Below are positions 29,440 to 60,383 of a DNA stretch of 64,000 nt, piece after piece. Under the pieces are notes generated by a model. The model saw only the letters and a program-made list of their open reading frames with translations. It was not told the origin of the DNA and did not search any database. The number at the start of each line of letters is the position of its first letter. The first letter of the stretch is position 1. Made by a program: the position numbers and the translations under genes. Source of the DNA: Chiua virens (taxonomy: Eukaryota; Basidiomycota; Agaricomycetes; Boletales; Boletaceae); the NCBI GenBank assembly GCA_019787685.1, contig JAHNUO010000047.1:1-64000 (forward strand). The letters run 5' to 3'.

Positions 29440-30415
29440 ACCAGACACTAACACTCTAACAACACTAACCCTCTAATCTCTAACTCTGACCTTTTGACAC
29501 TGACACACTAACCCTGACACTCTGACCCTGACACTCTGACTTACTCTGACCTGATACTCTAACCCACTCTAACTTATCTGACCTAACACTCTGACCCACT
29601 GACACTCTGACCTACTCTGACCTGACACTCTGACTCACTCTAACCCACTCTGACTTATCTGACCTAAACTCTGACCCTGACACTCTGACCCACTCTGACC
29701 CACTCTGACCCACTCTGACCCTGACACTCTAACCCACTCTGACTTATCTGACCTAAACTCTGACCCTGACACTCTGACCCACTCTGACCCACTCTGACCC
29801 TGACACTCTGACCCACTCTGACCCTGACACTCTGACCTACTCTGACCCTGACACTCTAACCCACTGACACTTTGACCTACTCTGACCTGACACTCTGACC
29901 CACTCTGACCCTAACACTCTGACCTACTCTGATCTACTCTGACCCTGACACTCTAACCCTACCTGACACTTTGACCTACTCTAACCTGACACTCTGACCC
30001 ACTCTGACCCTGACACTCTGACCTACTCTGACCTACTCTGACCCTGACACTCTAACCCACTGACACTTTGACCTACTCTGACCTAACACTCTGACCCACT
30101 CTGACCCTGACACTCTGACCCACTCTGACCTACTCTGACCCTGACACTCTAACCCACTGATACTTTGACCCACTCTGACCTGACACTCTGACCCACTCTG
30201 ACCTACTCTGACCCTGACACTCTAACCCACTGACACTTTGACCTACTCTGACCTGACACTCTGACCCACTCTGACCTAACACTCTGACCCACTCTGACCC
30301 TGACACTCTGACCCACTCTGAACCACTCTGACCCTGACACTCTAAACCACTGACACTTTGACCTACTCTGACCTGACACTCTGACCCACTCTGACCACAC
30401 ACTCTGACTCACTCC
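29440..30415. repeat. 1-kb minisatellite of ACTCTGACC-type units
   Basis: Nearly all bases are built from short units such as CACTCTGACC, ACACTCTGACC and CTACTCTGACC, arranged in higher-order blocks of roughly 45-120 bp. Minus-strand open frames (VRVGQSVSG-like) are repeat products and not genes. Confidence 0.95.
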
Positions 30416-30830
30416 CAAGTCTGATTAACCAACTCTGACCAAGTCTTACTCTAACCAAGCCTGCCCACTCATCAAGTTGACCATCTAAATTATGACTGAC
30501 CCTAACTAGTCTGACCCCCCAAGATGGTCTGACTACCCAAGATAGATAGGTCACAAGAAGGCTATGGGATGAAGGGAAGAAGGGAAGAATGGGTGTACTT
30601 GTATTCTAAAAAGTTATAGAAGAGTATCTGTAGAAAGGTTATGCGGTGAATGACGGGATGGAGAGCTGAAATGGGAACTGGGACCATGGTTTCGATGACA
30701 CGTCAGCCCAGAAAAAAAAAAGTGGCAAGTACTTGGTGTGGGTTTTGTACACTAGTGTACGTTTGAGGAACACAGGCATGGAGACGTTGAATGAGGACAG
30801 TGATGAGAATGGGGATGAGGACAGAGATAG

Positions 30831-31110
30831 GGGTGGGGACGGGGACAGGGACAGGGACAGGGACGGGGACGGGGACAGGGACGGGGACGGGGACGGGGAT
30901 GGGAACGGGGACAGAGTCGAAATTAAAGTCAGACGGGGAACAGGGAAAGGAAGAAGGTCAAGAAGTGACGGCAGGGGCGGGGACCGGAGTCGATAAAAAA
31001 GCCAAAAAGGGCGACGGGGACGGGGACAGAGAGAAGAACGTCGAGAAGTGACGGCAGGGGCGGGGACCGGAGTCGAAAAAAAGCCAAAAAAGGCGACGGG
31101 GACGGGGATG
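30831..31110. repeat. GGGGAC hexamer array and ~83-bp tandem duplication
   Basis: 30831-30915 is mostly (GGGGAC/AGGGAC)n. 30957-31039 is repeated at 31040-31110 (AGAAGTGACGGCAGGGGCGG core). The G-rich strand could form quadruplexes. The unit length is not a multiple of three, so the overlapping open frames are not a conserved repeat protein. Confidence 0.9.
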
Positions 31111-31130
31111 GAGTGCGGTACCGGAGACGG

Positions 31131-31545
31131 CGAGACATAGAGATAGGGACGACATCAAGATCGTTGACGTCAACGAGAAAGTGAGGGTCTATGGTGATGG
31201 ACCGGCGTGATTGAAGAAGGTGGATGGCGTGAAGAGTGTTGCCATGATCAAAGTAGCGCTTCAAAGTGGAAAGAGGGACGTGCTGAATACAGGTTGCACG
31301 AAATTGAGCATCATAGTCGGGGTTATTGTGATCTGGACGAGTTGTACGCATGATGGCGTCGTTGATGTCATGCTGGTCATAGGTGTCGGTAGCGAAGAGA
31401 TGAAGGGGGACATGGGCGATATTGAAAGGGCCAAGAGTGGTGTCAGAGTCGGGATCATGATGAAGGAGAGGGTCATGAAGCTGAGTGGGCGGGTTAGGAT
31501 GAGAGTCAGAGTCGTCGGGAGAGTCAGAGTGGGAGTCGGAGGACG
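31131..31545 (-). CDS. Hypothetical Ser/Asp/His-rich protein fragment
   Basis: After a CTCCAG acceptor-like site near 31541 the minus strand is open: SSSDSHSDSPDDSDSHPNPP, then GPFNIAHVPLHLFATDTYD, NPDYDAQFRATCIQHVP, LSTLKRYFDHGNTLHAIHLL. The low-complexity start gives way to an ordered-looking segment. The frame then runs into the G-rich repeat and is unlikely to be coding there. An upstream exon may lie at 31650-31790 (start ATG at 31790). No family recognised. Confidence 0.4.
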
Positions 31546-32395
31546 AGAGAGAATATGGACTGGAGAAAGAGAGAAAGGGAAATCAGCATGTGATAAAGAG
31601 AAATGGAAGACGAAGACGAAGACGAATAGAAATATAAAAAGGGAAAGAAGACGAACTGTAAGTGTTGATTCTGGGAAGGACGAGGGAGAGAGTTTGGATC
31701 AGAACGATGGTTTGGATGAGGAAGGGGAGAGATGGAGTTGACGAAATGGAAACGGCGAGGATTGAGGTGGTTGAGAGCGTTGTTAGACATGGGGAGAGAT
31801 TTCGAAAGGAAAAAAGAGGACGGATAAAAACGGAATTTGAAAAGCGAGCTTGAAGGTAAAAGACAACGAGGAGGATGCGGGTAAGGGGGGTGGCACGGGC
31901 GGACAGGGGTGGCACTGGAAGGGTCGAGTGAACGGAAGAGGAAATAAAAGGGTGTCGGGTGTGGGGGAAGTCAGGGAAGGCGGAGGGAAGGAGAACGAGA
32001 AGAATTGAATTGAACTGACCTTGAAGTTCAAGGCACTAGTACAAAGTGCTAGCGGAAGATCGGAATGCCTGAGAACGAAGACTGCAAGGGAAGGACTGTT
32101 GGTGGGGGTCACTCGGTGAGCGAGTCTGGAACAGGTTGAGATCGGGAAAGGGAATTGAATGGAATGATACGATGGGTTAGAATAGAGAACAAACCAGAGT
32201 GTCACGGTCTTCAATGATGTGATGGCAGTGGAGGAACTTGGCAACAAAGAGTATATATTTTTTGAAATATGGAGGGATAACGGCGAGGGTCGAATACAAT
32301 TACACTAACGTCGAAAATGAAGGACGGGGGTGAAGGGATGAAAGAGAGACGTTGAAGCTGAATGAAAAAAGAAAGGATGTACTGTGAGGGGTTAA
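31546..32395. other. Spacer, no gene supported
   Basis: A 154-codon minus-strand frame (31783-32247) is Pro/Ser/Phe-rich and looks like C/T-rich untranslated or promoter sequence more than protein. No repeats of note. Confidence 0.4.
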
Positions 32396-35300
32396 TCAGG
32401 CGTAGCTCAAAGAGTCCATTGTGAGATCATCAAGATCGTCGTCGTCACAACCATCGGTGTCCATGTCGACGTCATTGTCGTCGACGTCGCTGGCATGGAG
32501 ATAAGTCTGTTTCTTCTTACCTTCAGACTTCGACATGGCAGCGATGGACTTTGATGTGGAACGGGTTGTGCGAGGAGCGACGGTGACGCGAGAGCGTTTA
32601 GTGACGGAAGGGGCGCGTTCGGCTGCAAAGACGAGAAGGGACACGCGTGAGATAGAGGATGGAATGAATGGAAAGATGAAAGGAAATACTGACGAGATAC
32701 GAGGACGCTGGAAGTGGGGGACATAGGAGAACGCTTCTTGTTTGCGGAGGAATCGTTCTTGTCAGTGTGTTTGATTAGAGACGACGAACTTGAAGAATCG
32801 GCGTGGATGGAGGGACCGGGAACAGGATCGGACGGAGGAGGGATAACTGGGAGAAGGATGAATGTGGTACGGAAACGGACAGAAAAGGACACGAACGATC
32901 ATCGTGCATGGGAACGTCAACTGAAGAGGAAATGGGTTAGCTTTACAGTCGAAAAAGAAGAAGAAAACAAATGAATGTATTGATCTGAACCAAAAGAATG
33001 ATAGAACGAAGGATGAATTGACCGATATCGGTGAATATGTCGAATATCGGTGAAACAAAGCACAAATATCGACGGAAGAAACACGAAAGAGTGAGACGAG
33101 ACATATTAAACATGAAACGATACAATCGTGAATTATAGTCGAGTAATGTGCCGAGATCCGCACAACAGCGTGATGTCGGTGAAATGACGAAGACAAACAC
33201 AACACGTACCTTGATGATGGACCAACTGTGTAGGGACCAAGTCTTCGCCGCTGCCGACACCCATGACTTTGAAACGCTGACTGAAGTCGGTGTCGAACGG
33301 GTTTCCGATCGACGATTGCGAGTCCTGTGAGGAAAGAGTTTTACTCTGAGATCCACTTTGCGTGCACTCGTTAGTGGGAGGATCGAAGGACGATGCGGTG
33401 TTTGTGACGGTGTTGGAAGTGTGCGTGGAATTAGTTTTCGGGTTCGATTCGAGAGCAACAGAAGGACCTGTATATTGTGTGACGTTTGATGTTGTAAATA
33501 TGAAGATATGGATTAAACTTACCTAGTGTCGATTCAGATCGAACGGCGTGATCAGTACCGGTAGATGAGACAAGAAATCCGCGACTCTTGAGAACTCGAT
33601 CATTGTCAGAACCTGAAAACAAGCATTGCGTGGAAAGAGACAAGGTGTGAGTGATCTCTTTGTCGTCGTGAGTAACGATGAGATTCTCCAAGAGGATATC
33701 TTCGTCCGTCGGAATAGATGTAGTATTGTTGATGAGATGTTCAAGTTCGACGTCCTGTTCGCGATTCGCGTATGCACTGAAAGAAAGAAACTGCGATTTA
33801 AGGGTAGTTAGAATGATGTTGAATCAATATGATGGCGCATAGTACGAAAGGAAAATAGAGAGTACCTTGGCTAGCGTCTTCACAGCGGGATATATTTCAG
33901 AGCGAATGGTACGCTGTTTGTTCATTGCATCGGGGTCGACAGGATCCAACGCAGATGGGCAAGACTGTATGGCATGGATAACTTTCTTGATGTCGTCGAC
34001 GTCCTTTCTCTTTTGAACAGTGATGGACATCCGCTTGTTTTCGGCTTGAATGTCGAAATTAGTTTTTAGTGCGCGAGAGGTGTTGATGTCGATTCTGTCC
34101 GGCCATGTGAGTTTGTTCCCCTGGAGTTCGTCATCTGGTGCGGATGGACGACCTCTGTTCTTCGACATCATCGGGGAAACAACAGACTCCAAGAGTGAAC
34201 GGATGTGTGTGGAGCCGCTGTCAGAATTGGACAACAGAGCGAGACGATACCTGTAGACGGTACAGTATTCGACGATGGCGGCAGCGATCGTCTCCTTTCG
34301 AAATCTTGATTCGCTCCCTCCAGACGTGCTCCCCCATTGCATCGTGTGGAAATCGAGGAGAGTGGAGATGCGAAGGAATCCGGTGGGTTCTTTGTTGAAT
34401 TGAACGGTCTTGGTCCATCTCTCCATCCATCCTTTATCGACGACAGGCTTCCATTTAGATTTGATAACATCTTTCGCAAAGTTATCAAAAACGACAATCT
34501 CGGATCGTAATTCCTTTTGAAGAAAGAGTTCTGCGTGTGATAGTAGATATGTCATTGTATAGAAATGAATGTAATATGCGACATACCGTCTGTGTCGCTT
34601 GATTCGAAAGGAGCTTTGGTACCTTGATGTTCGTGATCAACTTGTTGTCTTCTTCAATGAGCATGTATTCTTTAACGGAATGAGATGTGTCTGGACGAAT
34701 GGGAATATTTGCGTTCAACAGCTCCTCCTCCATGCGCAAGAGTGAACCGAATTCTTGGATTAACGTCCAAATCGTCTATAATAGAAATTGTAACGGACAT
34801 GAAGAATATAATCACGTTCGATTTACTCACTGCTTGGAATGCGTCGTTCAAGTGAATTGATCTCACATCTTGATGAGCATAGAACGCTCTGACCAGATCA
34901 GCGGTCGGTGATCCGATCTTCCAAGTCCCGCCGATAATCTTGTGGATATAAACGAGAGGGCTGTACCACGACGAGATCTAGATGTTTTTGTTAGAGGAAA
35001 GAACGAAACGAAGGTTAAACGACGAAGAAAGTATACGTGTATTCACCGAGATATCGACATATGATCGATCTCGGCGATCAAGACACAATTAACGATGCAA
35101 GACGAGAAACACAACAGATTAGGTCGTATCTGCGTGAAATAAACGTTTGTATTCACCGAGATATCGAATCATGTTCGATCTCGGTGATTAAGACACAATT
35201 AACGATGTAAGACGAGAAACACAACAGACGTAGACGTATACGTCGTATCTGCGCGAAATAGATATGTATATTCACCGAGATATCGAACCATGTCCGATCT

Positions 35301-36980
35301 CGGTGATCTCGATGAAATGATGCTAATGAATAGTTACGCACCTCCAGCAACGTCTTCGGAACACGTTTCAATTGCTGTTCCATTGAATCCCATACAGACG
35401 CGGACATGAATGGGAGGTATTCGTGAATCGGATTGATGTCTCGGCATTGAAGAACAAGTTTCGCTTTGGAGGAGCAGTCTTTCCATGCTCGCTGGACGTC
35501 TCCGTTCAAGCTGTCCATGAGATCGTCGTCAGTCATCTCAGACAGAATGTCGTCCAGCTTCGCGACGACCGCCTCAGCATATTCCTCGTAGGGGTCCGAC
35601 CACTCTCCACATGGCGTCCCGAAGAATTTCCATAGGTCGTTTTTTCCTAGCGTATTCACGTAGATCGTATCCAGCTCGTACCTAACTTTGTCGTTGACAG
35701 CCTCTTTCACAGGCTTCTTGTCCAACGAAAGATGTTCGATACACTGGTTGAGATAAAATCGCGATTCTTCGGCGGTCCTCTGATTCGACGCTTGATTGTG
35801 GTCTAGTATCCGCATGTGCCTCTCAACTTCGGACGCGTTCCATTCGACCGTGTTGAAACACATTTGAAGTCGATGTTCGAGTGAGATCGCCAGCGCAGCT
35901 AAGAGCTGTGGAACATGGGTTCGCCGTTACGATCAATATACAATCGACCACTCACCCCGCCATGTTCAGATAGTAGCTGCTGCGTCAGTTTGCTGATCTT
36001 GAATATGTCCGAATGAATGTAGTGCGTCGACGGGATGTCGACGATCGTTTCCATGAGCTTCCAGATGAAATCTTGCTGAAGCAGACTCCGAATCTTGTAT
36101 TGCTGGGACTGAGAGCGAGAGCCCGTCTTCACATGACAATCACGCCAGGTTTCGTTGTTGATCTTCATCATCCGGAACGTCTGCACGATACCTTCTTCAG
36201 CCGTCTCTGCGTACGAATATAATCTGAGATTTGTCGACAAATGCATGCCGAGTCGTTGATTCACTTTCGCTACATGCTGGCTCGTCAGATATATCCGACG
36301 TTCATACAACGTAACCACTCACCTTGATCGTACACAGCGACGATCCACATTCCATGCAGGTTTACCATAGCCTGGTTGATCTCATATTTCACTTGCGCTT
36401 CCTGAATCTCTTCTTCCAACGCAGGATCGTTCTTACGGTTCTTCAGTTCCTGCTAGATCGCCCGAGTCTTCCTCGTCAGCATCTCCCTTTGTTTCACCCA
36501 CTCGCCCAATGCCGCATGACGGTGTCGTCCACCTGCAGCAATGATGTCGTTACTTGTCTCTCCGTCGTCATCCCAGGTCAGCCTTAACATTGATAGGTGG
36601 GATCCATGGCGATCGATCGAGTCGATCGCGATGTCTTTTTTCAACGTCGATGTGTCGACAACGTCAGAGGGAAGTATTATCGGAATGGCGGACCTGATCG
36701 AGAATCGATCAAGTCCGTTGTTGTTGAACGAATCCAGTAGGTTGCGCATTTCCCCATTGTTGAGGGGACGCGGATTGTACGATCCGAACGTAAAGTGTCG
36801 CTCCAGCAGATCCGTGCGCGCGTAACCCAAGAATGCGTGTCGACCTTGCTCCTCCAGATTGTAGTACTCTTCTAACGTCGTGTCCAGCCCAGTCGCCTCC
36901 GACGCAGTAACATTGACCGCCGCTTTCTTCTTCCGCGTAACTTTGTCCACGTCTTTCTGTTTTCCTTTAGAGCCTGACAT
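32396..36980 (-). CDS. Large multi-exon protein with a ParB/sulfiredoxin-like signature
   Basis: Start ATG at 36978-36980. Exons by splice signals: 36323-36980, 35956-36269, 35342-35905, 34831-34977, about 34587-34775, 33866-34530, 33523-33776, 33210-33467, about 32720-32846 and about 32396-32622. The N-terminal exon has RPLNNGEMRNLLDSF and, about 45 residues on, IIAAGGRHRHAALGEW, which fits the GG-x-H-R-x-x-A box of the ParB N-terminal/sulfiredoxin fold (nucleotide binding in those families). The middle is helical with no domain I recognise; the tail is basic and then acidic (near DVDDNDVDMDTDG), as in nuclear proteins. Odd points: an in-frame TAG at 36453-36455, uncertain phase at the exon 5/6 and 9/10 joins, and two introns of about 363 nt (32847-33209 and 34978-35341) carrying palindromes while the other measured ones are 50-56 nt. 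Function unknown; ParB-like is from motif memory only. Confidence 0.65.
33021..33054. repeat. Palindrome site 1 (intron of ParB-like gene)
   Basis: Perfect 12-bp palindrome ACCGATATCGGT at 33021-33032, followed by a half-site ATATCGGTGAA ending at 33054. Lies in the 363-nt intron. Confidence 0.8.
33147..33184. repeat. Palindrome site 2 (same intron)
   Basis: TGTGCCGAGAT, a 16-base spacer, and ATGTCGGTGAAA: a diverged copy of the half-site pair. Confidence 0.65.
35042..35306. repeat. Three tandem palindrome sites (intron of ParB-like gene)
   Basis: TTCACCGAGAT ... ATCTCGG(T/C)GA at 35042-35077, 35152-35187 and 35271-35306, in tandem units of about 110 and 119 bp that also share ACACAATTAACGATG, AAGACGAGAAACACAACAG and TCGTATCTGCG. 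They make up most of the 364-nt intron. Confidence 0.9.
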
Positions 36981-37234
36981 TTTGACCGATTGATCGTCGA
37001 ATATTGAGAATATTGAAATGAAATGGTGGTGGTTATGTCGAACAGAAATAGAATCGCCCACAAAACTGTAGTCTCCTCATCACGTGTGATACAACGATCA
37101 CGTGTACATCATTTTTGGAACGAAAAACTATACCGTATCTGACTTGAATATTATACTGGCATCGTACATGTTGTAGATATATTATCGGATCATTTGTATC
37201 GTACACGTGGATCATTGATCGGATCAGACTCAAA

Positions 37235-37270
37235 TTCGCCGAGATCGACATCATGTGACGATATCGGTCA
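37235..37270. repeat. Palindrome site, upstream of ParB-like gene
   Basis: TTCGCCGAGAT ... ATATCGGTCA. Lies about 255 bp upstream of the ParB-like start codon, between the two genes. Confidence 0.75.
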
Positions 37271-37360
37271 CCAAACTCGATTATTTTCTCACACAACTAC
37301 ATCCCAAGAGTTGACATGTCATTCATGGTCGCTAACATCCCTGTCGATTATACTGCATGA

Positions 37361-37398
37361 AATCGCCGATATACGACGTGTTTCCACATCTCGGTGAA
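37361..37398. repeat. Palindrome site next to RING gene 3' end
   Basis: AATCGCCGATAT ... ATCTCGGTGAA, 29 bp beyond the RING gene stop codon. Confidence 0.75.
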
Positions 37399-37426
37399 TA
37401 CGCACACCACACCACAAAACTCTTCT

Positions 37427-38785
37427 CTAATCACTCAAACTGATCACAGAATCAGACTCCGGTATGTAATCGTCATTTCCACGTCCAGCTGCTTGCCTCC
37501 TTCGAACGGATCTGACTGGTGAGTGGAACGCTTCTAACGGTACTTGGACCACTACTTTCCCTTTGTCTTTCTTGCGCTTGGGTCTTCGTCGCGACGCAGA
37601 GGGTGGGGTTTCCAGGTAATACACTTCATCCATCTCCTTCACGATTAGATAGTCGCGTGATCGCACCAGACTTAACCTGTCTTTCGTCAGCCAATACTTT
37701 TTGAATCGTCGCATCACCTCCATCGACATCCTGCACATCGAAATCGGTAAGTTGTGTCAACATCTCTCAAATTCCATACCACTCACGGAAGCTTGAAGTC
37801 TTTGTCCTTCTCGATAGTACCACCTTCCCCCCACCTCTCCCAAAGCGTCGTCTCACCCATCTCCTCCCAATCGCACTTACTCATTCCACTCTGCTTCATA
37901 ACTTCCAATCCCCTCTCGATCATACGATCGAGGATTCTTTTCGTCCCTTCATCATCCATAAACGGCATGTTCCATCCATGCCGTTGGCTCTCGTGCGGTA
38001 TTCCAATCGTCTTCGTTCGACAGAGGGCACACTCGAATTCCCTTTCCATCATCATATCGTAAGTCTCGTATCGTTTCGTTTCGAAATCGTAAGTGTGGCA
38101 CCATAATGACAATGCACATAGCGCACAGTATAGGTGTTGACACTTCTGCATTCGCACAACACACATGCTGTCGGTCCTTCCAATCAATACGCTACGTCTA
38201 TCCATCCACAAACAACAACTCACATTGGTTCTTTGCAGCTGCGTTACATTCAATCGCGTTCATAGATCAGCTCGATGTCATGCCGATAGAGTCAGTCCCA
38301 CTCACATAACGCAGGTCAGTTGATCGTTCACCAGATCATCAATCTCCTTCAAAACGCTCATCCTCTCCCTCATCTGTCCTCCGGTGTCCTTTCCCTTTCC
38401 TATTTTCTTCGTCATTTTCAAAATCGTCTCATTTCCTTCCTCCACTTTCCCCTCTAACTCTGCGTTCCGCTTTTCCAAATATTCGATCTTCTCTCTCATC
38501 TCTCTCGCTTCGTTATCCTCCTCCTCTTTTCCCTTACCCTTGACATTCTGCTCCGTTTTCTCCATCATACGCCGCTCATCAATCATATCAACTCCCATCT
38601 CAACGTCCATCGATCCTCGATCCTCTTCTCTATTCTCCACTTCCAATTCACGTTCAGCTATTACCATCCCTGTATCATATCATCATAAATCTTCGCATTC
38701 AGTGAGTCAATCACTCACCATCTCTCATCTCCACTTGACGTATCATCGCCTCTTGCCTTTTCATCAGACGTTGGAAGTAGGACAT
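37427..38785 (-). CDS. RING-finger protein with coiled coil, 376 aa, intact
   Basis: ATG at 38783-38785. Exons 38719-38785, 38306-38669, 38224-38238 (15 nt), 37787-38167 and 37427-37730 join in frame for 376 codons plus stop; introns are about 49-67 nt with GTGAGT donors. Residues about 60-140 form a charged coiled coil (KIEYLEKRNAELEGKV). The RING follows: CVIC at the microexon join, then KCQHLYCALC and, after a longer insert, ECALC, giving C-x2-C-x12-C-x-H-x2-C-x2-C...C-x2-C. It is a likely ubiquitin E3 ligase. The C-terminus has a basic tract (SRRRPKRKKDKGK, probable nuclear signal) and ends SDSVISLSD, which fits a SUMO-interacting motif. Skipping the microexon keeps the frame but removes the second RING cysteine. 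Palindrome sites flank both ends. Confidence 0.8.
38224..38238 (-). other. 15-nt microexon of the RING gene
   Basis: CTGCAAAGAACCAAT on the minus strand, preceded by ...AACGCAG and followed by GTGAGT. It supplies residues CKEP, including the second zinc-binding cysteine. Flanking introns are 67 and about 56 nt. Confidence 0.65.
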
Positions 38786-38913
38786 AGTTATCAGATAGAG
38801 TGCGGTATGACACACAATGTTGAATGGAAGGAGTTACAGGGTTGAGCGTTGATCACATACCATGTTTTATACCATTTTTCATTTCAAATATACTTCAACG
38901 ATCATCATTAATA

Positions 38914-38996
38914 ACACCGAGATCTCTACATGTGTAATATATCGGTAGATTATGTGTATATTTCACCGAGATTTTGCTATGTGTAAAATATCGGTA
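38914..38996. repeat. Two palindrome sites upstream of the RING gene
   Basis: ACACCGAGAT ... ATATCGGTA at 38914-38947 and TTCACCGAGAT ... ATATCGGTAA at 38962-38996, 130-210 bp upstream of the RING start codon. Confidence 0.8.
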
Positions 38997-39047
38997 ATTT
39001 AATGGTCTCTTTTCATATATACATATGATACAAAAATGTACATTATA

Positions 39048-39085
39048 TTTGCCGATATGTTTGAACATTCAAATCTCGGTATATT
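39048..39085. repeat. Palindrome site, outermost copy
   Basis: TTTGCCGATAT ... ATCTCGGTATAT. Beyond it I find no further copies in the window. Confidence 0.7.
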
Positions 39086-39099
39086 TAAGTTTCAAAAAA

Positions 39100-39500
39100 G
39101 TAAAATAACCCGGTCTAACCTGAACCCAATTAGAAAAAATATGTTACAATTTGGTTTGATTTTGCACTAAATTATCCTTGGAATATGTATGGCTGGATGG
39201 CTGGATGGCTGGGTGGTTGCATTTTTCTCAAATTGTGTTTCAATTATGCTGGGTTATAATTGTAATTTACCGCAAAACCTTGCATCACTTGATGGTCATT
39301 TTGCATGAATTTGCACATTAGTTCGCGCAAATCATGTACCCCTTGAAGTGTGCGGGTTGCCTTGTCTGTCCAGTCCAAACAATGTATTATTATATTCTGC
39401 GCATATCACATATATCTTGAAGTGCGCCATACACATCTTCATTTCCTTACCCGAACCATAGTCTAACCCCCATCTATTTGTAAAAATGTACTAGAATATG
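39100..39500. other. A/T-rich spacer with (ATGGCTGG)n
   Basis: No gene. A short (ATGGCTGG)n array is at 39189-39215. Confidence 0.6.
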
Positions 39501-41481
39501 ACAGAGTGTCCGGTTCGATGTCAAGTAGGTCGCAAGGGCAGGCTGACCGCGCGTCCGTGATGCTGAGAGGTGTCATGATGACGGTTGTATGAGGTGCAAT
39601 CAGGATTGAGAGTGGTGAGACCGGTTCAGTTAACACGGTCGGATCGATAATAAAATCCGTCGGTCGTTCCGTAACCGACGGTCGCGATGACAGAGCAACA
39701 CACGGGTTGATGTCCGTAACCAGTGCGATAGCCGCAGCACTATACGAGTTAGTAGGCGGTCCTTGGATTGATGGTGAAATAAAAACGGATGAAGAGATGG
39801 GTCAGTTATACGGAAGCGGATTGTAAGTGTCAGGTAGCGAAAGTGAAGGTGATCGAAGGCAAAGCGAAGGTGTAGGTGTAAAATAAGAATGTGATCCTGA
39901 TAAAAGAAACTCGGCTGCGTCACGAACGTCATCGAGCGCATACGAGGCATCCGGGTGGATATCCGGTCGCAGGATCGCTAACCGTCGACGAATCTCATAC
40001 TGTAAATCGACTGGGAAACCACTAAGAAAAAGAAAGTCTCGATCAAGAGTTGCTATTTGTTGTCGGGTGAGGAGGAATGATGATACTTTTGTAAATTCCC
40101 GAATATACTTCCCCAGCTCGTCAAGGGAGCGCATTGACTTGGATCGATAGTGATTGACGAGATTTTGGAGATCCTCGAAACGGTACCGGTTATTGAGTTC
40201 TGGGTAGAGTGTCTTGACGGCTATAACGAACGCCTGCCAATCCAGTGGATCGGCAACCGCTTCAGGTAGGGTCTCCCAAAGGTCGCGTATACTGGGATCG
40301 ACGTAATGCAATGCATACCGTACTTTCTTCGATTGGGGCAGTCCGACGCATGTGCAAAGAAAGTCGACGTCGTCTAGATATGGTTGGAGATGGGAAGCTT
40401 TTCCGCTGAAGGTTGGTGCATCCAGGGTGCCTCGATATGGCATCCGGATTATGCTAGCCGCGATCATGATGGACGGAAATGGTGTCAGTTGATTGTCTGA
40501 TGCGCTCGTGACCTTCGTAGCTAAGGGCGGGTGTATCGTGAGACACGGAGGAAGGGTTAGTAACGGTACAGGGGTGCAAGCAGGGTGAACAGGGACTAAA
40601 AGTCAGAAGGTATCATAACCGGATCCAAAAAAAATATAAGGTTTGTGAAACCGGATAAGGCACAAGTCGGGGACGGGTGTAGGTGAGGTGCGCAGCAAAA
40701 TGAAGGAAAAGCAGTAGGAGAGCAAAGACGTCCGAATCCGAACCTTCTGAAACCACCCCTCGCGGTGGGCTCCAGTTGTAGAAAAGAAATGATAGGTGAT
40801 AAGAAGAAAGGTGGGGCGATAGGTTCGTCCCGAGGGGGGTTATGTTTGAAGGGATGATGGATTCAGGTTTGTCTAAGAGTCCTAGAAGCTGCTGGACAAT
40901 CCGGAATGAAAAGCAGTCGATATAAAAGTATCCGGGTGGAGGCAAAGCGATGAGAGTATTGATTCGAGTAGATGAGACGTCGAGGAACGATAGGACGAGG
41001 TAAAAGAGAAACTATCCAGCTCACTCACGCACAGGAGAGTAAACAGGAGATCTCCTGAACGCAGAAAGACAGTATTTTTGTGTTAGAAACATGGTTTTAT
41101 AGTCCTGGGCATAACCCAGGACTGTTAAAGGTAATCCAACCCTAAGTAAGTGTACAGGATTGACGTAGGGTGAGTATGGAAAGAAGGGGTGTCAAACCTT
41201 GTAGATGACAAAGAAAGGGAAGGTGTTAGGATAGTAATGACCTTAATAAGGCCAAATCGAGTAGAACCAGTCAAATCGGATGAAGCGGAATACGTACGAA
41301 AGCACTGGATTGGATTGCGTTGACTCGGATTGGACTCGGATTGGACTCGGATGATCTGTAAACGCTAGGAATGAAACCGGGCTGGCATGAAGTCGATGGC
41401 GGATGAGACAGGAGATGATATGACATGATGAAGAGCGAGGAAAATGTATCCTACAACCGTAGGGAGTATCTAACTCCTACA
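39500..41481 (-). mobile_element. Truncated gypsy-type element (gypsy-3)
   Basis: Minus-strand element with a probable LTR start TGTAGGAGTTAGATACTCC at 41481, a TATA box (TATAAAA, about 41094-41100) next to a hairpin AGTCCTGGG/CCCAGGACT, and a gag gene at 39802-40467. No protease, RT or integrase remains on the 3' side; the left limit is approximate. It cut into an older reading frame at 41482. Confidence 0.55.
39802..40467 (-). CDS. Retrotransposon gag-like protein
   Basis: About 221 open codons with the pattern of fungal gypsy gag: APTFSGKASHLQPYLDDVDF near the start, YVDPSIRDLWETLPEA, FVIAVKTLYPELNNRYRFED and SFLLTRQQIATLDRDFLFLS. The product would be the capsid precursor. No zinc knuckle lies in the retained part. 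The frame is undamaged; the ATG at 40465-40467 or a later Met may be the start. Confidence 0.6.
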   Translation of the reverse strand: MIAASIIRMPYRGTLDAPTFSGKASHLQPYLDDVDFLCTCVGLPQSKKVRYALHYVDPSIRDLWETLPEAVADPLDWQAFVIAVKTLYPELNNRYRFEDLQNLVNHYRSKSMRSLDELGKYIREFTKVSSFLLTRQQIATLDRDFLFLSGFPVDLQYEIRRRLAILRPDIHPDASYALDDVRDAAEFLLSGSHSYFTPTPSLCLRSPSLSLPDTYNPLPYN

Positions 41482-41567: not shown

Positions 41568-42909
41568 CTATGACAATGACCATCCAAATCTACTTTTAAT
41601 TATGAGTAGTTCGATGGCTCGTTCAAAATGTAAATGTATTTATTGCCTACTAACGGTGTTGGCTGCGATAAGGGCTTATAACTCCTTGCAGTAATTACAG
41701 AAGTTTCGAAAGCACTAAAGACATTACCAGCAACTACCACAATTGCAGTAGTATACAAGAAATGCGCCAATGCCTTGCTAGTATGTATATTCCATGGTAA
41801 TAATGTAAATCATCCTCGTAGTATGGCAACGATCCTATAAATTTGTGTAACCCCTTATCGGACCTCGGTCAGATCTGCAATGTTGTATGATATTGATTAC
41901 ACAAGCAATTCCCAGCAAGTTAGATACAATGGTAGGGTATTGGTCGTGATATACACACTCGTGGGCACTAGAGTCCTTGGCTCCAACACTATTACGTCCT
42001 CTCATGATGGCCGTGCTGCCTCGACTAGTTCATTATTTTCACAACACATAATCCATTTGATTTATAGTACAGGTTCAATGATCTCAAACACGCAGTGTCA
42101 CACATCGAGCTGTTGGCTGTGCATGACACCCATTTGAATACATAATTGAGTAATTGCAATTGCTCTGCCGGCTAAAAGTAATGAGTCATTGCAGCTGTGC
42201 TCCCCATTGGGAGCTTGAAGTAACCTCTGAGGCGAGATTCAACGACACATCTCACTCAAACATTTACTCCACAGGTTTATAAAGAGTGCAACCCGCTGGC
42301 AAATGGCACCCAACGACATTCGAAACCTGCAGTTCCCTGCCTACTATTATTTATGGCTATGAATGCGTTCCCCGTAAGTACCACTTGGCTCCTTTGAATG
42401 CTGTTGACCTACAAGATAGAACGGCACGCGAGTTTTCTTCTGGACGGCCTGTGGTGAAATAAAGTATGGTACTGTACAATCCATGAGTCGCCTTGCCGAT
42501 GTGAGCTGTTTGCTCCAATATGCGCAGTATCTGCGACTAATTGTCAGTACCAGGGGACGCAGGTTATCATTGTAGTGATGGATGGAGGGGAAGGTCATCG
42601 CAGTCTTCCGTAAGTCATATTAACATTGTGAAACCCAGACACTCTGAGAGGCTGACGCCAATTATCAGCGTGTCGAGTGTCTCAAAAGTACACTAGTAAG
42701 CCAAGTCATTATTCGGAGCATGCTTTATCAGCATTTATTGTAGATTTCATTAGACTAGCTAGAACCATTGGATGGACTTCACATCCCCTGCACATCTGTG
42801 TTCCTCAGATTCCTGACACTTTGAGCTTTCTCACGTCGGAATAAGACTTTCAGTCATATTGTACATAGCAGTCTATTGTTGAAAACCACAAGTACAACGG
42901 CTGCAGGTA
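41568..42909. other. Intergenic stretch, no gene supported
   Basis: Open frames at 41880-42137 and 42347-42598 have no coding bias I can support and no recognisable domain. No clear repeats. Confidence 0.5.
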
Positions 42910-45350
42910 TCATGCGCGAGCTTCAGATGCAGCAGGTGTGCAACGACGCTTTGAGCCCTGTTCTAGTGTTGGACTAGCCCCACGCTTCGAGCCCTTCGAC
43001 AATGACCCTTTCGAGTTCGCCAAATGGTTGGTCCCACGCTGGGTCGTCTTTACCCGAATTTTCTTCGTTGTGGTGAAACTACCCGGTAGATTGTCGTCTG
43101 CCTTGTCGTCCATAGGCCACGCCTCCTTGTCCAAGGCGCATCTCATCTCGTCAAGGAACGAGCGAGCCATTTTGAGAGACTCAATATCCTCGTCATACTC
43201 AGAAATGATGACGCGTAACGCGATGAGCTTGTCGTCCTGCTGCTCCCGTGGAATGTCGATCTTTTTTCGATCTTCATCACTTGGAGGTTGCCCGTAAAAC
43301 GACTTGAAAGGCTTGCGTAGGACTGCAAGAAGCTTCAGAAGTGGGGTGGATATTCTGGGTGCGAAGTCCTCCGATGGATAAGTGCCCGCAGCAAAGTCCT
43401 TGGCCTTGGCGCGACCACCAGATTCGAAATGTCCTAGGTTCGAACACACCTCATCAAACATGGCGAGGTCATAATCCCGATTGCCAGCCGAATATGTGTC
43501 ACCGGCAGGCACGTAACGCAGAGTAATCCATGCAAGGACATGAAGGAACGACTCGAGATCATCCGCAAACTCGTGCATCTTGCCAGGGTTCTTAAGGAGA
43601 TTGGCAGACATGAACTGCCATGTGCCCTGGTTGAGTTGACGGTGATCAATGCATGAAATAATAGCATGGCGCCGGATGGCTTACAGTGCGATCAGGGCGT
43701 CTGCTTCCAACGTCATCCACTAGTTTACCCAGTTCCCAATCAATCAATAGACCCCGGCCCTCGTCTGTCAATATGATATTCCCCGCGCTTATATCGCGAT
43801 GTAAAATCTTTGCCTTTTCGAATGCGTGCGAGTGGGCTGTATCATGGTTTGTTAGAAATCTCAGTCAAAATATGCAGGAACTGTACCTTGAAGTGCGTCA
43901 AAGACGCCAGTAACCAGTTCTTTTGTGCAAACAAATTTGTAAAGTGCTCGGCCAACAACCCCATGGAATAGCCGGTAGTGCTGGTATGGCGAGATCCGGA
44001 GCTTTACGCATAGCCATGGAGCATTCCCAAACTCTTGTGTTCGTGTCTTTCCGCCATCAATGTCACCACCAGCGACATGCTCGGGGATGTTGGGAGTCCC
44101 ATGAGAGTGCAGGACCTTGTAGATCTCATGTTCAGGCATCACCTTGATGTCCGACGAGCCGGACAGGAATCGCCAGGTGTCCTTCATGTAGATGATTCGT
44201 TCTTGATGCCATGGTCCTTCCTTCACGATATTGTCCTGGGCTGGAACCCAGACTACGGGGAGGCTTCGAGTGCGTCGGCTGACGGGCGACCGATTTTGCG
44301 TCGACGGCTTAGGACCATATGCATAGCCTAAACCAGACATGCCAGGTAACTCGTATCTGTACAGCGCCGCATCATTGCTTTTGATCCCCAGTTTTTGCCG
44401 CACGCGCGCGGCGAGATCAGGCACAATTTCCGCTGGCTGGACGGTGGGGTCGTGGCCACGTTCCACAGCAGAAAGGTGATCAAACTGCCACAAAAATTCG
44501 GCCATAAGCCTGGGCTGTGCACGGTAGTTAAAGGCAGCGGTCACAATAACGCCCGATGGGTCCCATCGCAGGAACCGAGCATCCTGGGTTTCGACTAGCA
44601 TCGAGAATGAGAAGTTGCGGAATTGCACACTGTGCAGAGCGCCAGCATAATGCGACAGTTGGCCTCGGATCGACCTTCCCTCCTTCGTAGCCGGGGTGAA
44701 CGAGCCTGACTTGATCGCGGAGCGACATGAGTCCTCTGTGATATCTGAAGGATCCTGGAAAGCAGCACCATCGTTGTTCTTAAACTCTATCCAAAGCTCC
44801 ATTTGGGAGAAATTAGTCCTGTCTGGGATTGGTTGGTCGCGATTGTAGATGGAGATATCTGTCCTAAGCTTTAGCTTGTTTGACGTGTCCTCTCTGTTGC
44901 TCGTGTTCACCGCTTCAAGATGTGGCATCCATTGTTGAATCGCGTCGATCTGGAAGAGGGCGACTGTCACACCGTGAGATCATCTGCAGAGGGCTGCGCT
45001 ACTTACAAATGGTGCATAACGGCCACTATCCGACCCATTCTCCTGGACTTCCTGGAATGGATTCTCGGGGATTTCTGGTAACGGTGCACCGGCAGTAGAG
45101 AGGAATATATTGAGGAATTCCTTGACGGGCATCGCACCGACCCAGCGACCTTCCATCTCGTCGCTAAGGCGTTCGCGGGCTGTTTCGTAATCCTGAGGAG
45201 TAGAGGTGTAAGCCAAGTTTGAACCAAACTTCTTTTTGGCTGGAGTGGAATCGCTGGCGAACTCGAGCTGAGGAGCGTGTTCAAGTTGTGTGCTGGATGT
45301 GGTAGTCGACTGGCGTCGGACAACAGGCTGGACCTGGTGAGAGTTGGGCA
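42910..45350 (-). CDS. FunK1-type fungal protein kinase, four exons, apparently intact
   Basis: ATG at 45348-45350 (MPNSHQVQPVV). Exons 45007-45350, 43887-44962, 43685-43836 and 42910-43626 with GTAAGT/GTACAG/GTAAGC donors. Kinase motifs: ILHRDISAGNI (catalytic HRD), LLIDWELGK (DFG-equivalent DWE), then across the last splice DRTGTWQFMS and HEFADDLESFLHVL. The region before it (QMELWIEFKNND, TKEGRSIRGQL, YAGALHSVQFRNFSFS) is the FunK1 N-lobe. The tail is basic (KKIRVKTTQRG, SKRGASPTLEQGSKRR) and probably nuclear. FunK1 kinases are expanded in multicellular basidiomycetes; substrates are mostly unknown. Upstream is a CACGTG box at about 45502. All motifs are present and no stop or frame break is seen, unlike most neighbours. 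Confidence 0.92.
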
Positions 45351-48088
45351 TGTTGAAGGAAGAACGGGTGATCCAGGGTGAGGAAAGAGAGTGAGCGAAC
45401 ATGTAAGTCACGATAATCGCCACGCACCACATGTTTGTTTTCCGACATAAGTATCTGTAACCCGGTAAGCAATCTGAAGTTGGGCCAGCAGCAGGCTAAG
45501 GGGCCACGTGACAACCACTGGCAGGGCGCGGTTCGGGCGTGCTACAGGCCGTGAATGACCGGGACCGGTCGGGGGATGCGCGGCAACTGAGTGGCCAAGC
45601 GTTGAGAGGGGCCTTGCGTGGGAACCCCGGCTTTGCGCAGCGAGCTCATGTTTTCTCTTTCCGCGTGTGAGGTGCAACTAATAGTCCATCTAATTCAGTA
45701 CTACAGTACTACAGGACCAGTAACCCTCAGCCTTCAGATTCCAATGTCACCTTGGCTGTCACGGCGACGCCGATGTTTATATTCTTCTTGGACGGGAGAC
45801 ATGTGGGTGGTGACTCGGATGCGGCATGCATGGACAGAGGTTGATTATGGATGTCGTCGACTCGCCTGGACTGGCCTTGATACGGCCGTATGGATGTGGT
45901 ACATCAAACCACACTGACGCTCTAGGTCGCGGCTCCATCTTTCCTTGACATCGCGGTGGGTTGGCATGTTGCTTGGGATGTGTGACGCGTGTAGTGGACT
46001 GTGTGCGTAGCCCATCGTTCCGGTCACCTTCAGCATTCTTCTGGTGCTTCAGTTCGCTCTCGGCACTTCTTGTTGTGACTTGCTCGCCCATCGACCCTCC
46101 TGGAGCAGTATCTCGACTTTGCGCACACCGCTGATGCGCTTGCTGGGTGGCTTGGGTCGCCTGGAGCTGTCTGACGAGTTTGCCTCATTCACATCCCTCG
46201 ACCGTTTCCTGACCCGTTCTAGCGCTTCTAATGGCTTCTTCAGCCTGTTACGAGGATCCTCAATGCTGGCGACGCATCTGCATCAGCTTTCGGCATGGCC
46301 AGCTCGTCTCAAGCTTTGTGGCGCGTTTTCTTCAACTATTTTCTGTGGTCCTTTACTAACATGCTCTGATACGTTCTGCAGCTTCTTTGGATGCTCCTTA
46401 GTGTCATACAGTCACCAGCAACCATTTCCACCATCCTACAAACCTCCAGACCGAGCCCAAGTCAAAACGGCCGAGCACGAAGACGTGTAACAACCCCCAC
46501 CACGAATGCACGGCACTGGCGAGCGTAGTGACAAAGCGTGCTCGTAGGCGATGCAGGCATGACTAGGACCTTAGGAACAGGCTTAAGGCAACGACGAATA
46601 CGCCAGAATGTCAGCCCGAGCGGGAAGAGCGAAGGGAGAGAGACCGCCCACCAGAACTCCCATTCACTGTGATCCAAAGCAAGGGGCTTCACAAATGCTC
46701 GAGGGCATGACAGAACCAAGCTGCGTATTTACCCCGTTCAATGAAATAGCTACATTTGGCTTACGATGCTCTGCAGTTTCAATGCCTGTTCAACCTGCTG
46801 GCTTTGGTGGGATCCTAGCCTGCCAACGCAAGCAAGTACGAACGTTTCGTACTTGCATATTTAGCCGAGCAGCACCTATTAATACTTTGTACTTGTATTT
46901 GTTTGAAAATCTGGAATTATGTCGTTTACAACCATAGGCTCTTACGAAAATTCGAACGTGCTTGCACCAAGTGCTGCTGTCCCCTCCCCTCCCTGCTCGT
47001 CCTCATCAGTCTCCAGGTCATTAAGCCCTCTTTCTGTTTTCCTCCACTCATCTCATCACCTTTCTGGCCCTGTGACACCCTCCTCCCTGCGCCGTTCGTC
47101 CAAATTACTGGCTGTTTCTACCGCGGGCACGTGCGGCTGTCAGAAAGTGGTCAGATCAACGCAGTGACTTCAGCTGAAAACCGACTTTTTTCGGGGTTGG
47201 TAGCAAGGGCGGCAGCGGCGTAGCGAACTGGACGAACATATGGTGAGGAATGCACGGTAGCATGACGTCCAAGAACGTACCCATCTTGAGACGTGTGTCG
47301 AGCGCGGTGTGCGTTGGTTGGTGTCAACTGCAAAGATTGTGGCTTAAACTTTACTGTTGCAGTTTGGATTCGGCGGTGTCAATGCTGTCAGCCACGCGAT
47401 CAAAGCAATGCTACTTACTACTTACACCGTGATTGCATTCCCTCCTACACCTCACCTGCTCCTTGCTCGGAGTCACCGGTCGTGTCTCCCGGTGAGTTGC
47501 GTCCCCCCCTCCTCTCCTCGGTGTTGAGACAAACGCGACACGTGGACGATGCAACACGCTGTCATCTCGTTCTCGTCATGTTGCGTCGTTGTCGTGATAT
47601 CATCGTGATGCCGCTGTCGTCCTCGCGTTGTGGGGCGACATGGATTGTGAATGACACGAAGGAGAGGTGTGGAGCAGTGTGGGGCCCGGGCCGCGAAAGA
47701 TTACAATGAGTGAGTGCAAGGTGAAGCACACCAAAATACATCCTAAGACGATGCAAAACATGTTAGAACGTTAGCAACAGCACAGGAAGCGAATGGTAGA
47801 GTAAAACTCACCCAGAGGATGACCAGAGTCGAAATATGACCCAAGGGGCGAAACGGCCATATTACACGACATCCACACTCACTTGAAGTGCCCTGGAAGT
47901 GAGCAGCACGAGAATCGAGGTGCCATGGTGATGATGCCACGGCGGATGCGCGAGTCAACGACAACATACGTCATGGTCATGCTACGTCACTAGTCACTGC
48001 TGGTGGTTGCGGCAGCGGCATTGTCGTCCGTGGGAACTTTAGGGCAAGGAATTTTACGGGGAAACTGACCCAGTGTCACGGGTGTATC
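45351..48088. other. Long intergenic stretch, partly repeat-like
   Basis: The first 300 bases are the FunK1 upstream region. On the minus strand around 46060-46430 there is a charged coding-like frame (LERVRKRSRDVNEANSSDSS) with stops, possibly gag debris. TGTAACAACCCCC at 46487 resembles an LTR start but no partner end or target duplication was found. An 11-bp inverted repeat GCAAGTACGAA with 3-base loop is at 46832-46856. No gene is supported. Confidence 0.4.
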
Positions 48089-51000: not shown

Positions 51001-52330
51001 CCTAATTTCCGATGGGTACGATTGGGGTATAATCTCCTCACAACCCTTCTTGCAAGCCCGGATGGTGTTTGCTTTCTGATGGCGGAGGACGAATTTCTGA
51101 ATCAAATCGTGAAGAGTTTTGCTCAACTTGACCCAGTTCATATAGCATTCGTAATATGTTCACTGCGCTGATCCCAAGCGACAGTTCAATGGTACTCCTG
51201 AGTCCGACCCGATTTTCTCTAAAGCACGCCTATCGGACACCCTAACCTATGGCTACTTTGAAATGCTTGGTACTCTTGGCAAACACGCAGAAGGACTCGA
51301 GTATGTTAGGTCCCTTCGGATGTCTTCGTTGTTTACACAGCCTACAGGCTCATGGAGAAATCGAAAATCTTTACCGCCTTCTATCATCTCAGTGAGCTCC
51401 GAAATCGTGAAGATATCATAAGTACAGTGATCACAAACTTGCACTATACCATGTACGTCTTCTCGCAGATGTGGCTTTGTGATACTCAAACGCAATGAAC
51501 CTATAGCGATGGCCACTCACGTGTAGTGCTTTCAAAGGCGTTGACATCTGAGGATGTTCACGTTCGGCTATTTGCGACGAATCACCTTGGCAAGCTCATT
51601 CGGAATTCACTAAGCCCAGTCTCGTGGAGTTTGCGACTTCTTCTGACGCAGCTCTACGATCCTTCTCCAGAAGTATGCGAAATGGCGATCCAGTTCCTCG
51701 AGGAAGTGTGCGACGCCATGGAAGTGCTCCACTTGTAGTGGAAATGCAGCCCACAATGGACCATCTCGGCGAAATAGGTCATCCATTGTTGCTGAAGTCG
51801 GTTCTGCACAGTTATTCTTCGGACTCATCTAATTGACGTTACGTCAGATTCGTGTCCACTCCAATGGGGTTCCGGTATCAATGGGGTTCCGGTATCTCTA
51901 CAATGCTGGTTACATCGACAGAGAGATGGACATGCGGTTCCATGTAAGCGCACTCATCCTGTTTGAGACTCAACTGACTGATAGAATACAAGGAACGGAA
52001 CATATACTATGTCGTTCAAGTTGAGATCTTCTTGGCAAAGGTATTCACAGAAGACGACGAAGACGTTTTGTGGGTGCTGTCTGTTCATTCCAGCTTCAGT
52101 TCTCATACCATCATGCAGAGCTTTTGATGGTGTTGTCCCACCCCATTTTTATGGGGAGATGTCCAAGACTGAGCTTGGTTGTCAAGTCTTGAGTGAAAAG
52201 GGGCATTTTGCAGAGTTTTCTCATTTTATACGGCAGTATGGTCTTGAGAGCGAAGATCTCGAACTCATCCTGAAGCTGAATGTTAATACCCGAGCGGCAC
52301 CATCATCCCCGTCGCTTCACCATAGTCGGA
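48089..52330 (+). pseudogene. TORC2 subunit Rictor/Ste16/Avo3-like gene, 5' part, decaying
   Basis: A series of plus-strand exons matches the Rictor family, the scaffold of TOR complex 2 (cell growth, actin, AGC-kinase control). In order: a Ser-rich N-terminus; an HR1-like helix LEALKTLLERENRIKEGAEK (about 48285-48350); AAAYRLIRHSLVD; EPIMRAFVAVAEHADDPFR; GGIRFLLHALGEGP; SPRTRAYLRLGID; APEWYKTFIDGRHLT; LLVFTNAGLLDALTCM-like text; LEEAIKVSRFMRRL; RLGYNLLTTLLASPDG; EDVHVRLFATNHLGKLIRN; and MDHLGEIGHPLLLK. Several frame breaks occur: a one-base loss near 51735 relative to the second copy, and a 17-bp tandem duplication (ATGGGGTTCCGGTATC unit) near 51868-51900. The match ends at about 52283 in LKLN. 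The rest of the gene is 1.4 kb downstream. Confidence 0.85.
51265..52283 (+). repeat. Rictor internal duplication, copy A
   Basis: About 1.02 kb matching 53695-54702 throughout, both exons and introns. Copy A carries the one-base deletion at about 51735 and the 17-bp duplication near 51870, so its frame is broken where copy B stays open. Confidence 0.88.
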
Positions 52331-52339
52331 CAAACGTGA

Positions 52340-53690: not shown

Positions 53691-53694
53691 TACA

Positions 53695-55722: not shown

Positions 55723-55989
55723 ATTCTTTTCCTGTTAGTGTCAATGGATTGACCAGATTGGATATCATTGCTAGTACTGCATATATAGTCCATACCCTGA
55801 TTGGTATCACTGACACTAAGTCTTTGAAATGGGATTGGCGATGTGCCAATGATCCACATGGCCGAGCACGAATGTCGCGTCCAACGTAGGCATCAGAAGG
55901 TAACAAATCAGAACGCGAGCAACAAAAGCCAATCAGAGCCGAGGGAGCAACGTCCCTCGGCACGTTCTTTCCAAGAGTCTTGTCTCATC

Positions 55990-56990: not shown

Positions 56991-57329
56991 ATATCGTGGA
57001 CTCACTAGACCATTTCAAGAGTGCCATCTTTCTAGCAGGACACAAACACACTCAGAGCTACGACGTGGGTACCCGCCCATTACCATGCTGTGCTAGACAC
57101 TGGCCAGAAGCATTCTACATTGTCAATTGTTATAACAACGTCGTGTACAAGGTCTAGTAAGAAAGTACTATGGAACCACCCTTCGTAGTTTCGGCAGATT
57201 CTAGTAGCTTTGTTCATTTCAGAAGCCAGCATTGTATTTGATTATCTTGGACCAGGTAACCACATTGTCGTTTTGAGCCCTTGAAGCTGCCAAGGCCATG
57301 AATGATAGTACACGACACCGACGAGGAAA

Positions 57330-60380: not shown

Positions 60381-60383
60381 CAG

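Follow-up and report, generated by a model that had tools for sequence, protein, structure and literature searches.

A self-associated, class-specific dyad system around a ParB-like gene family on a large repeated element of Chiua virens

Introduction

On its own transposon, the VANC21 protein is reported to occupy introns, intergenic regions and terminal non-coding DNA, the only places where its motif is dense, and the related VANC6 uses other motifs (PMC5735166, PMC10398659). The motif-bearing intron tandem repeats of VANC targets gain and lose copies, and VANA is described as the transposase of VANDAL (PMC5735166). KorB is reported to repress at long range on RK2, its sites lying 45 bp to over 1 kb away from the promoter (PMC11790492). 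The Ectocarpus element Sola1-1_Ec32 (21.5 kb) includes a ParB-like accessory gene, for which binding and marking of the element's own DNA has been proposed (PMC12477816). In eukaryotes the ParB-CTPase fold is most commonly represented by sulfiredoxin (Srx), according to a survey whose main text holds no word starting with 'fung' or 'transpos' (PMC12704722). Here we describe an array of interrupted palindromes (dyads) around a ParB-like gene and a RING-finger gene of the fungus Chiua virens, located in the window, that is, the first 64 kb of the 128.9-kb contig C47 (JAHNUO010000047.1) in a 48.3-Mb assembly of 136 contigs (GCA_019787685.1). The observation of this array is confirmed and extended: the dyads form a self-associated and class-specific system within a large fungal element, and each element class carries its own dyad of fixed geometry, outside modelled exons and practically nowhere else in the genome. 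No description of this ParB-like element family was found in our literature searches, and we know of sequence-specific anti-silencing by a transposon's own protein only from the Arabidopsis VANDALs, whose VANA transposase is Mutator-like.

Class-A dyads in the window and across the genome

The window array consists of exactly ten dyads of the form CACCGAKAT-N15-ATMTCGGTG between 33.0 and 39.1 kb (33022 to 39079; dyad coordinates give the first base of the CCGA...TCGG core). The spacer between the 9-mers is 15 nt in nine dyads and 14 nt in the last (39052), which bears out a preliminary description of about ten palindromes with half-sites inverted after about 14-16 bases. Chance origin is ruled out by dinucleotide shuffles, in which 0.01 dyads were expected and 0/100 shuffles gave ten. 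Three dyads lie upstream of the RING gene at the element end (dyads 8 to 10: 38917..38945, 38966..38994 and 39052..39079, the last with the 14-nt spacer), two in the spacer between the RING and ParB-like genes (dyads 6 and 7: 37239..37267 and 37366..37394), three in intron 3 of the ParB-like gene (dyads 3 to 5: 35046..35074, 35156..35184 and 35275..35303) and two in the intron after its exon 8 (dyads 1 and 2: 33022..33050 and 33151..33179). This is the distribution first described, upstream of the RING gene, between the genes and in two introns. The absence from exons also holds, 0/10 dyads overlapping modelled exons; the exons of RING and the final ones of the ParB-like gene were placed by eye. 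As had been stated, no cluster lies elsewhere in the window; the strict pattern has no further match anywhere in the 64 kb.

Across the assembly, this strict class-A pattern gave 45 matches (16 on C28, 16 on C78, ten in the window and singletons on C6, C13 and C15), and a reversed control pattern gave three; 42/45 sites are in three places, all copies of one locus. Over 28.7 kb the C28 and C78 copies are 99.76% alike; they probably represent the two haplotypes of a single locus, which leaves class A with two independent places. The ParB-like gene copy on C28/C78 is intact in the gene model, and the locus there continues for ~6.7 kb beyond the extent of the window copy, with more dyads. Scanning C78 with a symmetrised position weight matrix (PWM) found 17 class-A sites plus an 18th with a 14-nt spacer. 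The genome scan for half-site pairs thus showed the anticipated co-location with the ParB-like gene family (42/45 strict sites).

Paralogous elements carry a second dyad

A genome search with the C78 protein matched at least 66 segments in many loci, a lower bound, as 45/82 candidates were scored. The loci examined were on C1, C9, C11, C14 (two places), C21, the C47 end, C48, C28 and C78, and in the window. Four of the six paralogue loci first examined (C48, C14, C1 and C11) carry arrays of a different dyad, CCCGCATTTCGACAA-N2-TTGTCGAAATGCGGG and variants (class B). A degenerate class-B pattern matched 35 times in the whole assembly, the control 0 times: four on C1, five on C11, five on C13, three plus a stray at 197897 on C14, six at the C47 end and 11 on C48, with 34/35 inside paralogue loci. 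The PWMs were symmetrised and built from 15 sites (C78) and 11 sites (C48), the threshold being the maximum of five shuffles. With these, C48 contained 13 class-B sites and no class-A hit above the shuffle maximum. Cross-hits were marginal (class B: one in C78, 1.9, and two in the window, 2.9 and 1.9; class A: one at the C47 end, 2.3), compared with own-class scores of 13.9-45.3 for A in C78 and 35.2-60.7 for B in C48. Since the sites are tied to the gene family and the paralogues have their own dyad, even genomic spread and a small dispersed repeat or miniature inverted-repeat transposable element are both excluded, the sites being confined to family loci (42/45 for class A, 34/35 for class B).

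The dyads of the two classes occupy matching places, namely the right end, the spacer between the RING and ParB-like genes, intron 3 and the 3' side of the ParB-like gene, an intron of gene 4 (read directly in class B and assumed for class A by analogy) and the left part. The splice point of intron 3 is common to both classes (LLE/ISSW in A, MVE/ISSW in B), and the seven modelled class-A introns measure 50-75 nt except intron 3, which has 486 nt in C78. There it holds four dyads in tandem units of changing number, and the window intron has three because one 122-bp unit is missing. In the ParB-like gene models of the two classes, 11/11 dyads are outside modelled exons that fill 74% and 80% of the set spans. 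Eight of them are clearly intronic; the other three, on the class-B 3' side, are intronic only by analogy with class A, because the C1 protein record ends there, so that they stand just past the last modelled exon, whereas those of class A are in the intron after exon 8. On C14, class-B-type dyads are found in intron 3 and other matching places, although this locus and the class-B locus barely align as DNA (66 + 352 bp by blastn). Identity of the C14 protein to class B is 48-78% for residues 1-599 and drops to 41-46% towards the C-terminus; class-A and class-B proteins share roughly 35-60% identity.

Among 36 class-A half-sites, core positions 1, 3, 4, 6 and 7 (C, G, A, A, T) never vary, and position 5 holds G 23 times, T 12 times and C once; the two half-sites of a dyad are about two helical turns apart. 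Complementarity of an arm to its own partner was 173/270 in class A, against a mean of 175.9 with shuffled partners, and 189/234 in class B, against 185.3. As the arms are no better paired than shuffled ones, each half-site appears to be selected on its own, as would be the case for a DNA-binding protein that works as a dimer, and an RNA or DNA hairpin is rejected as the selected feature for lack of compensatory pairing. The fixed spacing, together with a sequence that differs between classes alongside diverged proteins, fits co-divergence. Intron-3 DNA had no match among plasmids, and viral contigs yielded 0 relatives.

Organization and likely mobility of the element

The class-A and class-B elements share the order of their main open reading frames (ORFs), RING, ParB-like, gene 3 and gene 4, all encoded on one strand; class A has an extra cysteine-rich ORF. 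The class-B block on C48 measures 15.0 kb (C48:91434-106405). Its right end falls at the same point, give or take one base, in C48, C11 and C1, where the DNA beyond does not align; C13 matches up to the same end, and a related end occurs on C14, C30 and C53. The class-A right end looks homologous to it (GTCTAACCT...ATTAG.AAAATATG.TA..AT). A multi-copy block with a common right end and unrelated flanks looks like a mobile element. The class-B left terminus could not be fixed, the left ~300 bp being a 150-bp tandem repeat present in many places, and no clean target-site duplication was seen at C48; the class-A left end was sought and not located.

Protein relatives were found in Chiua virens, Boletus edulis (six clusters), Suillus spraguei (one) and two ENA contigs, in searches that each scored the ~8,000 candidates sharing most words, so that the range could be wider. 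In the tree, C21 and Suillus stand apart, with strong support, from a group made up of A, B, C14, C9 and two Boletus edulis clades; long branches leave the placing of A, C21 and Suillus unsure. Gene-4 relatives are present within about 5-7 kb of the ParB-like paralogues on C11 and C21. On C21 (546 kb), a gene-4 relative has five equal-scoring copies (184337, 291183, 325317, 473829 and 499627), which suggests a recently active related element without known dyads. C1:3501419-3510326 is a decaying class-B copy with partly eroded dyads, and its protein record P0009 starts late. A ~730-bp inverted repeat with 91% identical arms (C48:90536-91263 and 108657-109388) encloses the class-B element at some distance. 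Arrays of the 150-bp tandem repeat were seen at C47:111000-116500 and on C5, C12, C14, C22, C39, C41 and other contigs; the class-B block begins on its left with two such units, and an element right end abuts an array on C14, C30 and C53.

The damaged copy in the window

The window holds a damaged 8-kb copy of this repeated, multi-gene, ~15-kb and probably mobile element. The copy (31141..39150) aligns to C78:26946-35099 with 36 substitutions in 7,999 gap-free columns and three indels (0.45%); its flanks are unrelated to those of the C78 copy, and it is without the remainder of the element present in C28/C78. The right terminus (39108..39150) resembles the class-B and C14 termini. The RING-finger gene (37427..38785, minus strand; exons by eye, start codon placed) matches Pfam PF24921 with an E value of 3.7e-7, below the curated cut-off, and class-B copies hold a RING relative of 29% identity. 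The preliminary description had suggested it as a partner of the ParB-like protein; what the sequences show is that the RING gene is a co-resident element gene in classes A and B, and co-residence is no proof of partnership.

The ParB-like gene (32396..36980, minus strand) was modelled as exons 1-8 in the C78 copy and mapped to the window. Exon 1 (36323..36980) encodes the ParB/Srx-like motif order with the GGRHRHAA box, and exon 2 (35956..36269) the HLSTNxRLYSYAETAEEG region. Exon 3 (35342..35905) precedes the expanded intron 3 (34978..35341), whose three dyads lie in 110-119-bp tandem units; then follow, all minus strand, exons 4 (34831..34977), 5 (34587..34775), 6 (33866..34530), 7 (33523..33790) and 8 (33210..33467), the next intron with its two dyads and exons placed by eye on to 32396. 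Two lesions disrupt the gene, an in-frame TAG in exon 1 (36453-36455, minus strand) and, in exon 5, the loss at 34598 of 25 bp that C78 retains. The Chiua virens protein record JVU11DRAFT_12445 is 97% identical to the ParB-like protein over 80% of the query. pN/pS (the ratio of nonsynonymous to synonymous polymorphism) between C78 and the window copy is 0.37 (9 and 7 changes) and was given no weight because of the few changes and the one broken copy. Gene 3, a 572-aa ORF in C78, is present as a cut-off piece (31141..31582, minus strand).

The sequence at 30546-31147 is a lone copy of the ~730-bp C48 repeat arm whose outer end meets the class-A fragment at 31141-31147, and a 0.9-kb minisatellite of CACTCTGACC-type units occupies 29518-30414. 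On the other side of the copy, a 266-aa open frame at 39802-40602 appears retroelement-like by eye and has no Pfam match; the DNA just past it (40772-41481) recurs near C78:12.7-14.5k. A direct duplication of ~1 kb, 84.6% identical, was observed at 51268-52281 and 53695-54704.

The ParB-like protein

The N-terminus contains, in order, the motifs LxxSFxxxGLxRF, PLII, IxAAGGRHRxxAL, WIVxVYD and NQRLYxYAExAEEG, among which we presume counterparts of the ParB motifs LxxS...G, P-I-V, a GxRRxRAA-like box and an ENxxR...EEA-like segment; by eye, the ParB/Srx-like order is present in most of the 11 N-termini listed. The Srx motif is GGCHR with the catalytic Cys, and this Cys position is Arg in 11/11 of these N-termini. 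In Pfam, eight family members had no match to a ParB model (PF02195 or related) at E values up to 10, and weak matches of one member each to KIF21A (0.013) and DUF7205 (0.057). The element ORFs, scanned as exon pieces, gave no convincing Pfam match except RING, and none to a ParA-like gene or a transposase. Six proteins had no match in PHROGs, a search of the Protein Data Bank (PDB) with the family profile gave no hit, and PDB searches by sequence with the gene-4 exon and P0002 returned just weak, unrelated rows. Alignment by hhalign to 57 Spo0J-type ParBs (of 80 fetched, a narrow set of Bacilli and kin) had a probability of 0.1-0.3%, and a column-reversed control scored higher (0.7-1.0%); the best segment was in the expected register, IVAAGGRHRR on IVAGERRFRA, without significance.

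The AlphaFold model of P0008 had a pLDDT of 57.6, with each 10-residue block of residues 1-190 below 60, and is too poor for a fold match; modelling against the ParB-N/Srx fold, which the preliminary description had put forward, speaks neither for nor against it. Fold searches with this low-confidence model placed no ParB or Srx chain among the matches listed. P0001, a protein without the ParB-like N-terminus, was modelled as well. Descent from ParB, suggested by the motif order, is plausible and unproven. From the earlier idea of a self-associated ParB-fold system, the association of the sites with this gene family stands, whereas the ParB fold is unsupported by Pfam, the PDB profile search and hhalign. 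The ParB-like protein is the best candidate for the binder of the dyads: a ParB-like gene or piece is present at each array found, and the dyads surround and invade the gene.

CpG content and silencing

CpG observed/expected (o/e), here a proxy for methylation, is 0.38 on the left of the window (0.04 to 0.74 in 2-kb bins over 1-30000), 1.25 in the element copy and 0.92 on the right; on C78 it is 0.49 in the left flank and 1.21 in the element, the right sides being 0.92-0.95 overall. The contrast across the window between the repeat-rich, low stretch 1-31000 and the stretch 42000-62000, at about 0.9-1.0, suggests methylation-driven decay of repeats in Chiua virens. Between C1 and C48, transitions affect 167/1,116 CpG positions of C48, compared with 17/808 in the reverse direction and 26/3,267 at other G/C positions. 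Such CpG-biased transitions in C1 indicate that CpG decay acts on the element family; the corresponding values for the window copy are 20/1,089, 5/1,059 and 5/2,625. CpG o/e declines away from the dyads in class A (rho -0.45; 0/2,000 circular shifts as low with 400-bp bins, 3.7% with 250-bp bins). Protection from methylation would explain this class-A pattern, and so would recent spread.

Proposed function and alternative explanations

The most likely function of the system is self-directed chromatin control, with anti-silencing first and regulation or segregation second. We put forward tentatively, as a real possibility, that the element's own protein binds the dyads to manage, and probably to protect, its own chromatin, as VANC anti-silencing does. 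The dyads would be bound by an element-encoded protein acting as a dimer, the ParB-like one being the likeliest, and this protein, by occupying the element at several points, would keep host silencing (CpG methylation) off it, leaving the rest of the genome alone, as VANC proteins do on VANDAL transposons. Joint change of protein and motif would give each class a private system. A bolder form, which we consider unlikely, is that a true ParB-fold, nucleotide-gated clamp loads at its own dyads and spreads over the ~15 kb as a silencing-excluding coat, classes A and B being insulated, co-diverging private systems in one nucleus.

Several observations weigh against protection of its own chromatin by an element-encoded dyad binder. 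Dyads are absent from the 7.5 kb examined of the diverged C21 paralogue and from the C9 paralogue, whose matched segments contain stops, and not every family member therefore needs dyads. The link between CpG and dyad distance is absent in class B (rho 0.02 and 0.05), and with an overall o/e of 0.89 the class-B element of C48 does not count as CpG-rich; the high CpG of class A may simply mark a young or recently spread element whose copies differ by 0.45%. Between C48 and C1, the dyads are more diverged (17/306) than non-coding (78/3,790) and coding (157/4,799) DNA, perhaps through CpG decay. Gene 3, gene 4 or a host factor may also be the binder.

Control of the KorB/ParB kind, in which the protein loads at the dyads, spreads or bridges, and represses genes or aids segregation or copy control without countering silencing, would account for dispersed dyads on a multi-gene selfish element, as the OB sites of KorB are on RK2 (PMC11790492), and for neighbouring clusters ~2 kb apart in 5/6 gaps of class A and 4/5 of class B. 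The by-eye ParB/Srx-like motif order also fits it. However, ParB homology found no support in the tests run, no ParA-like gene was recognized by Pfam in the element ORFs scanned, and the intronic dyads are not positioned like promoter operators, which leaves this explanation rather doubtful. A further alternative is that the element's own recombinase builds its transposition complex on the dyads; three class-A dyads are within ~240 bp and two class-B dyads within ~370 bp of right termini that are common to copies with unrelated flanks. Most dyads, nevertheless, lie inside the element, as far as ~7 kb from its ends, and many are intronic; terminal sites would be enough, and no transposase was recognized in the ORFs scanned; we regard a transposition role as decidedly unlikely.

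The intronic position of many dyads and the nearly perfect palindromes of class B could be ascribed to a host transcription factor or to intron RNA hairpins acting in splicing or small RNAs. A host factor should have sites elsewhere, yet just three class-A and one class-B strict matches lie outside the loci in 48.3 Mb, and the motif differs between classes within one genome; the hairpin version is opposed by arms without compensatory pairing, and the two together are very improbable. Least probable of all is that the dyads are functionless hitch-hikers, copied passively by tandem duplication inside the element. The 110-122-bp tandem units of intron 3 and the pair 38915/38964 in a 49-bp unit (73% identity) speak for it, but what the other class-A copies have in common is their half-site cores and 15-nt spacing, with variable bases in the spacer and outside the arms, class B has the same layout with another sequence, and C14 retains its dyads where the loci barely align as DNA.

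Comparison with known systems and significance

If anti-silencing by the element's own protein is correct, the Chiua element would be a second, unrelated anti-silencing case, in fungi, and would imply that selfish DNA repeatedly evolves private self-recognition. The classes A, B and C14 would then form a natural series of matched protein-site pairs in which co-change of specificity and target could be followed, and the system might provide a tool for locus marking. If the fold is truly ParB, it would represent a DNA-binding use of this fold in eukaryotes, where its commonest form is reported to be the enzyme sulfiredoxin (PMC12704722). The Chiua protein shares the GG-x-HR box with sulfiredoxin and differs from it in the Arg at the catalytic Cys position, in its size of ~1,000 aa and in residing on a repeated element. 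The nearest eukaryotic precedent is Sola1-1_Ec32, likewise a large element with a ParB-like accessory gene; there, the ParB-like part is fused to a DNA methyltransferase and stands beside a transposase, neither of which was found in the Chiua ORFs scanned, and its description reports no binding sites (PMC12477816).

Among prokaryotes, KorB on RK2 is the closest case. Both systems have dispersed operators on multi-gene selfish DNA encoding a ParB-family protein (ParB-like by motif in Chiua), whereas RK2 is a bacterial plasmid with 16-bp sites upstream of promoters (PMC11790492) and the Chiua dyads are ~29 bp long, many of them intronic, on a chromosomal eukaryotic element, the homology of its protein to ParB being unproven. 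In its working, the system is closest to VANC/VANDAL. Shared features are an element-linked protein gene and a short motif in introns, intergenic and terminal non-coding DNA (PMC5735166, PMC10398659), a motif that differs between related families, and intron tandem units of varying copy number. On the other hand, the Chiua element is fungal and VANDAL is from plants; the gene sets differ, with no transposase recognized here; fixed-spacing dyads in small clusters stand against the dense same-orientation 9-mer arrays described for VANDAL; and the Chiua protein carries ParB/Srx-like motifs, in a case known from sequence. The relation between the two would accordingly be one of convergence, a plant transposon and a fungal element arriving at similar self-recognition.

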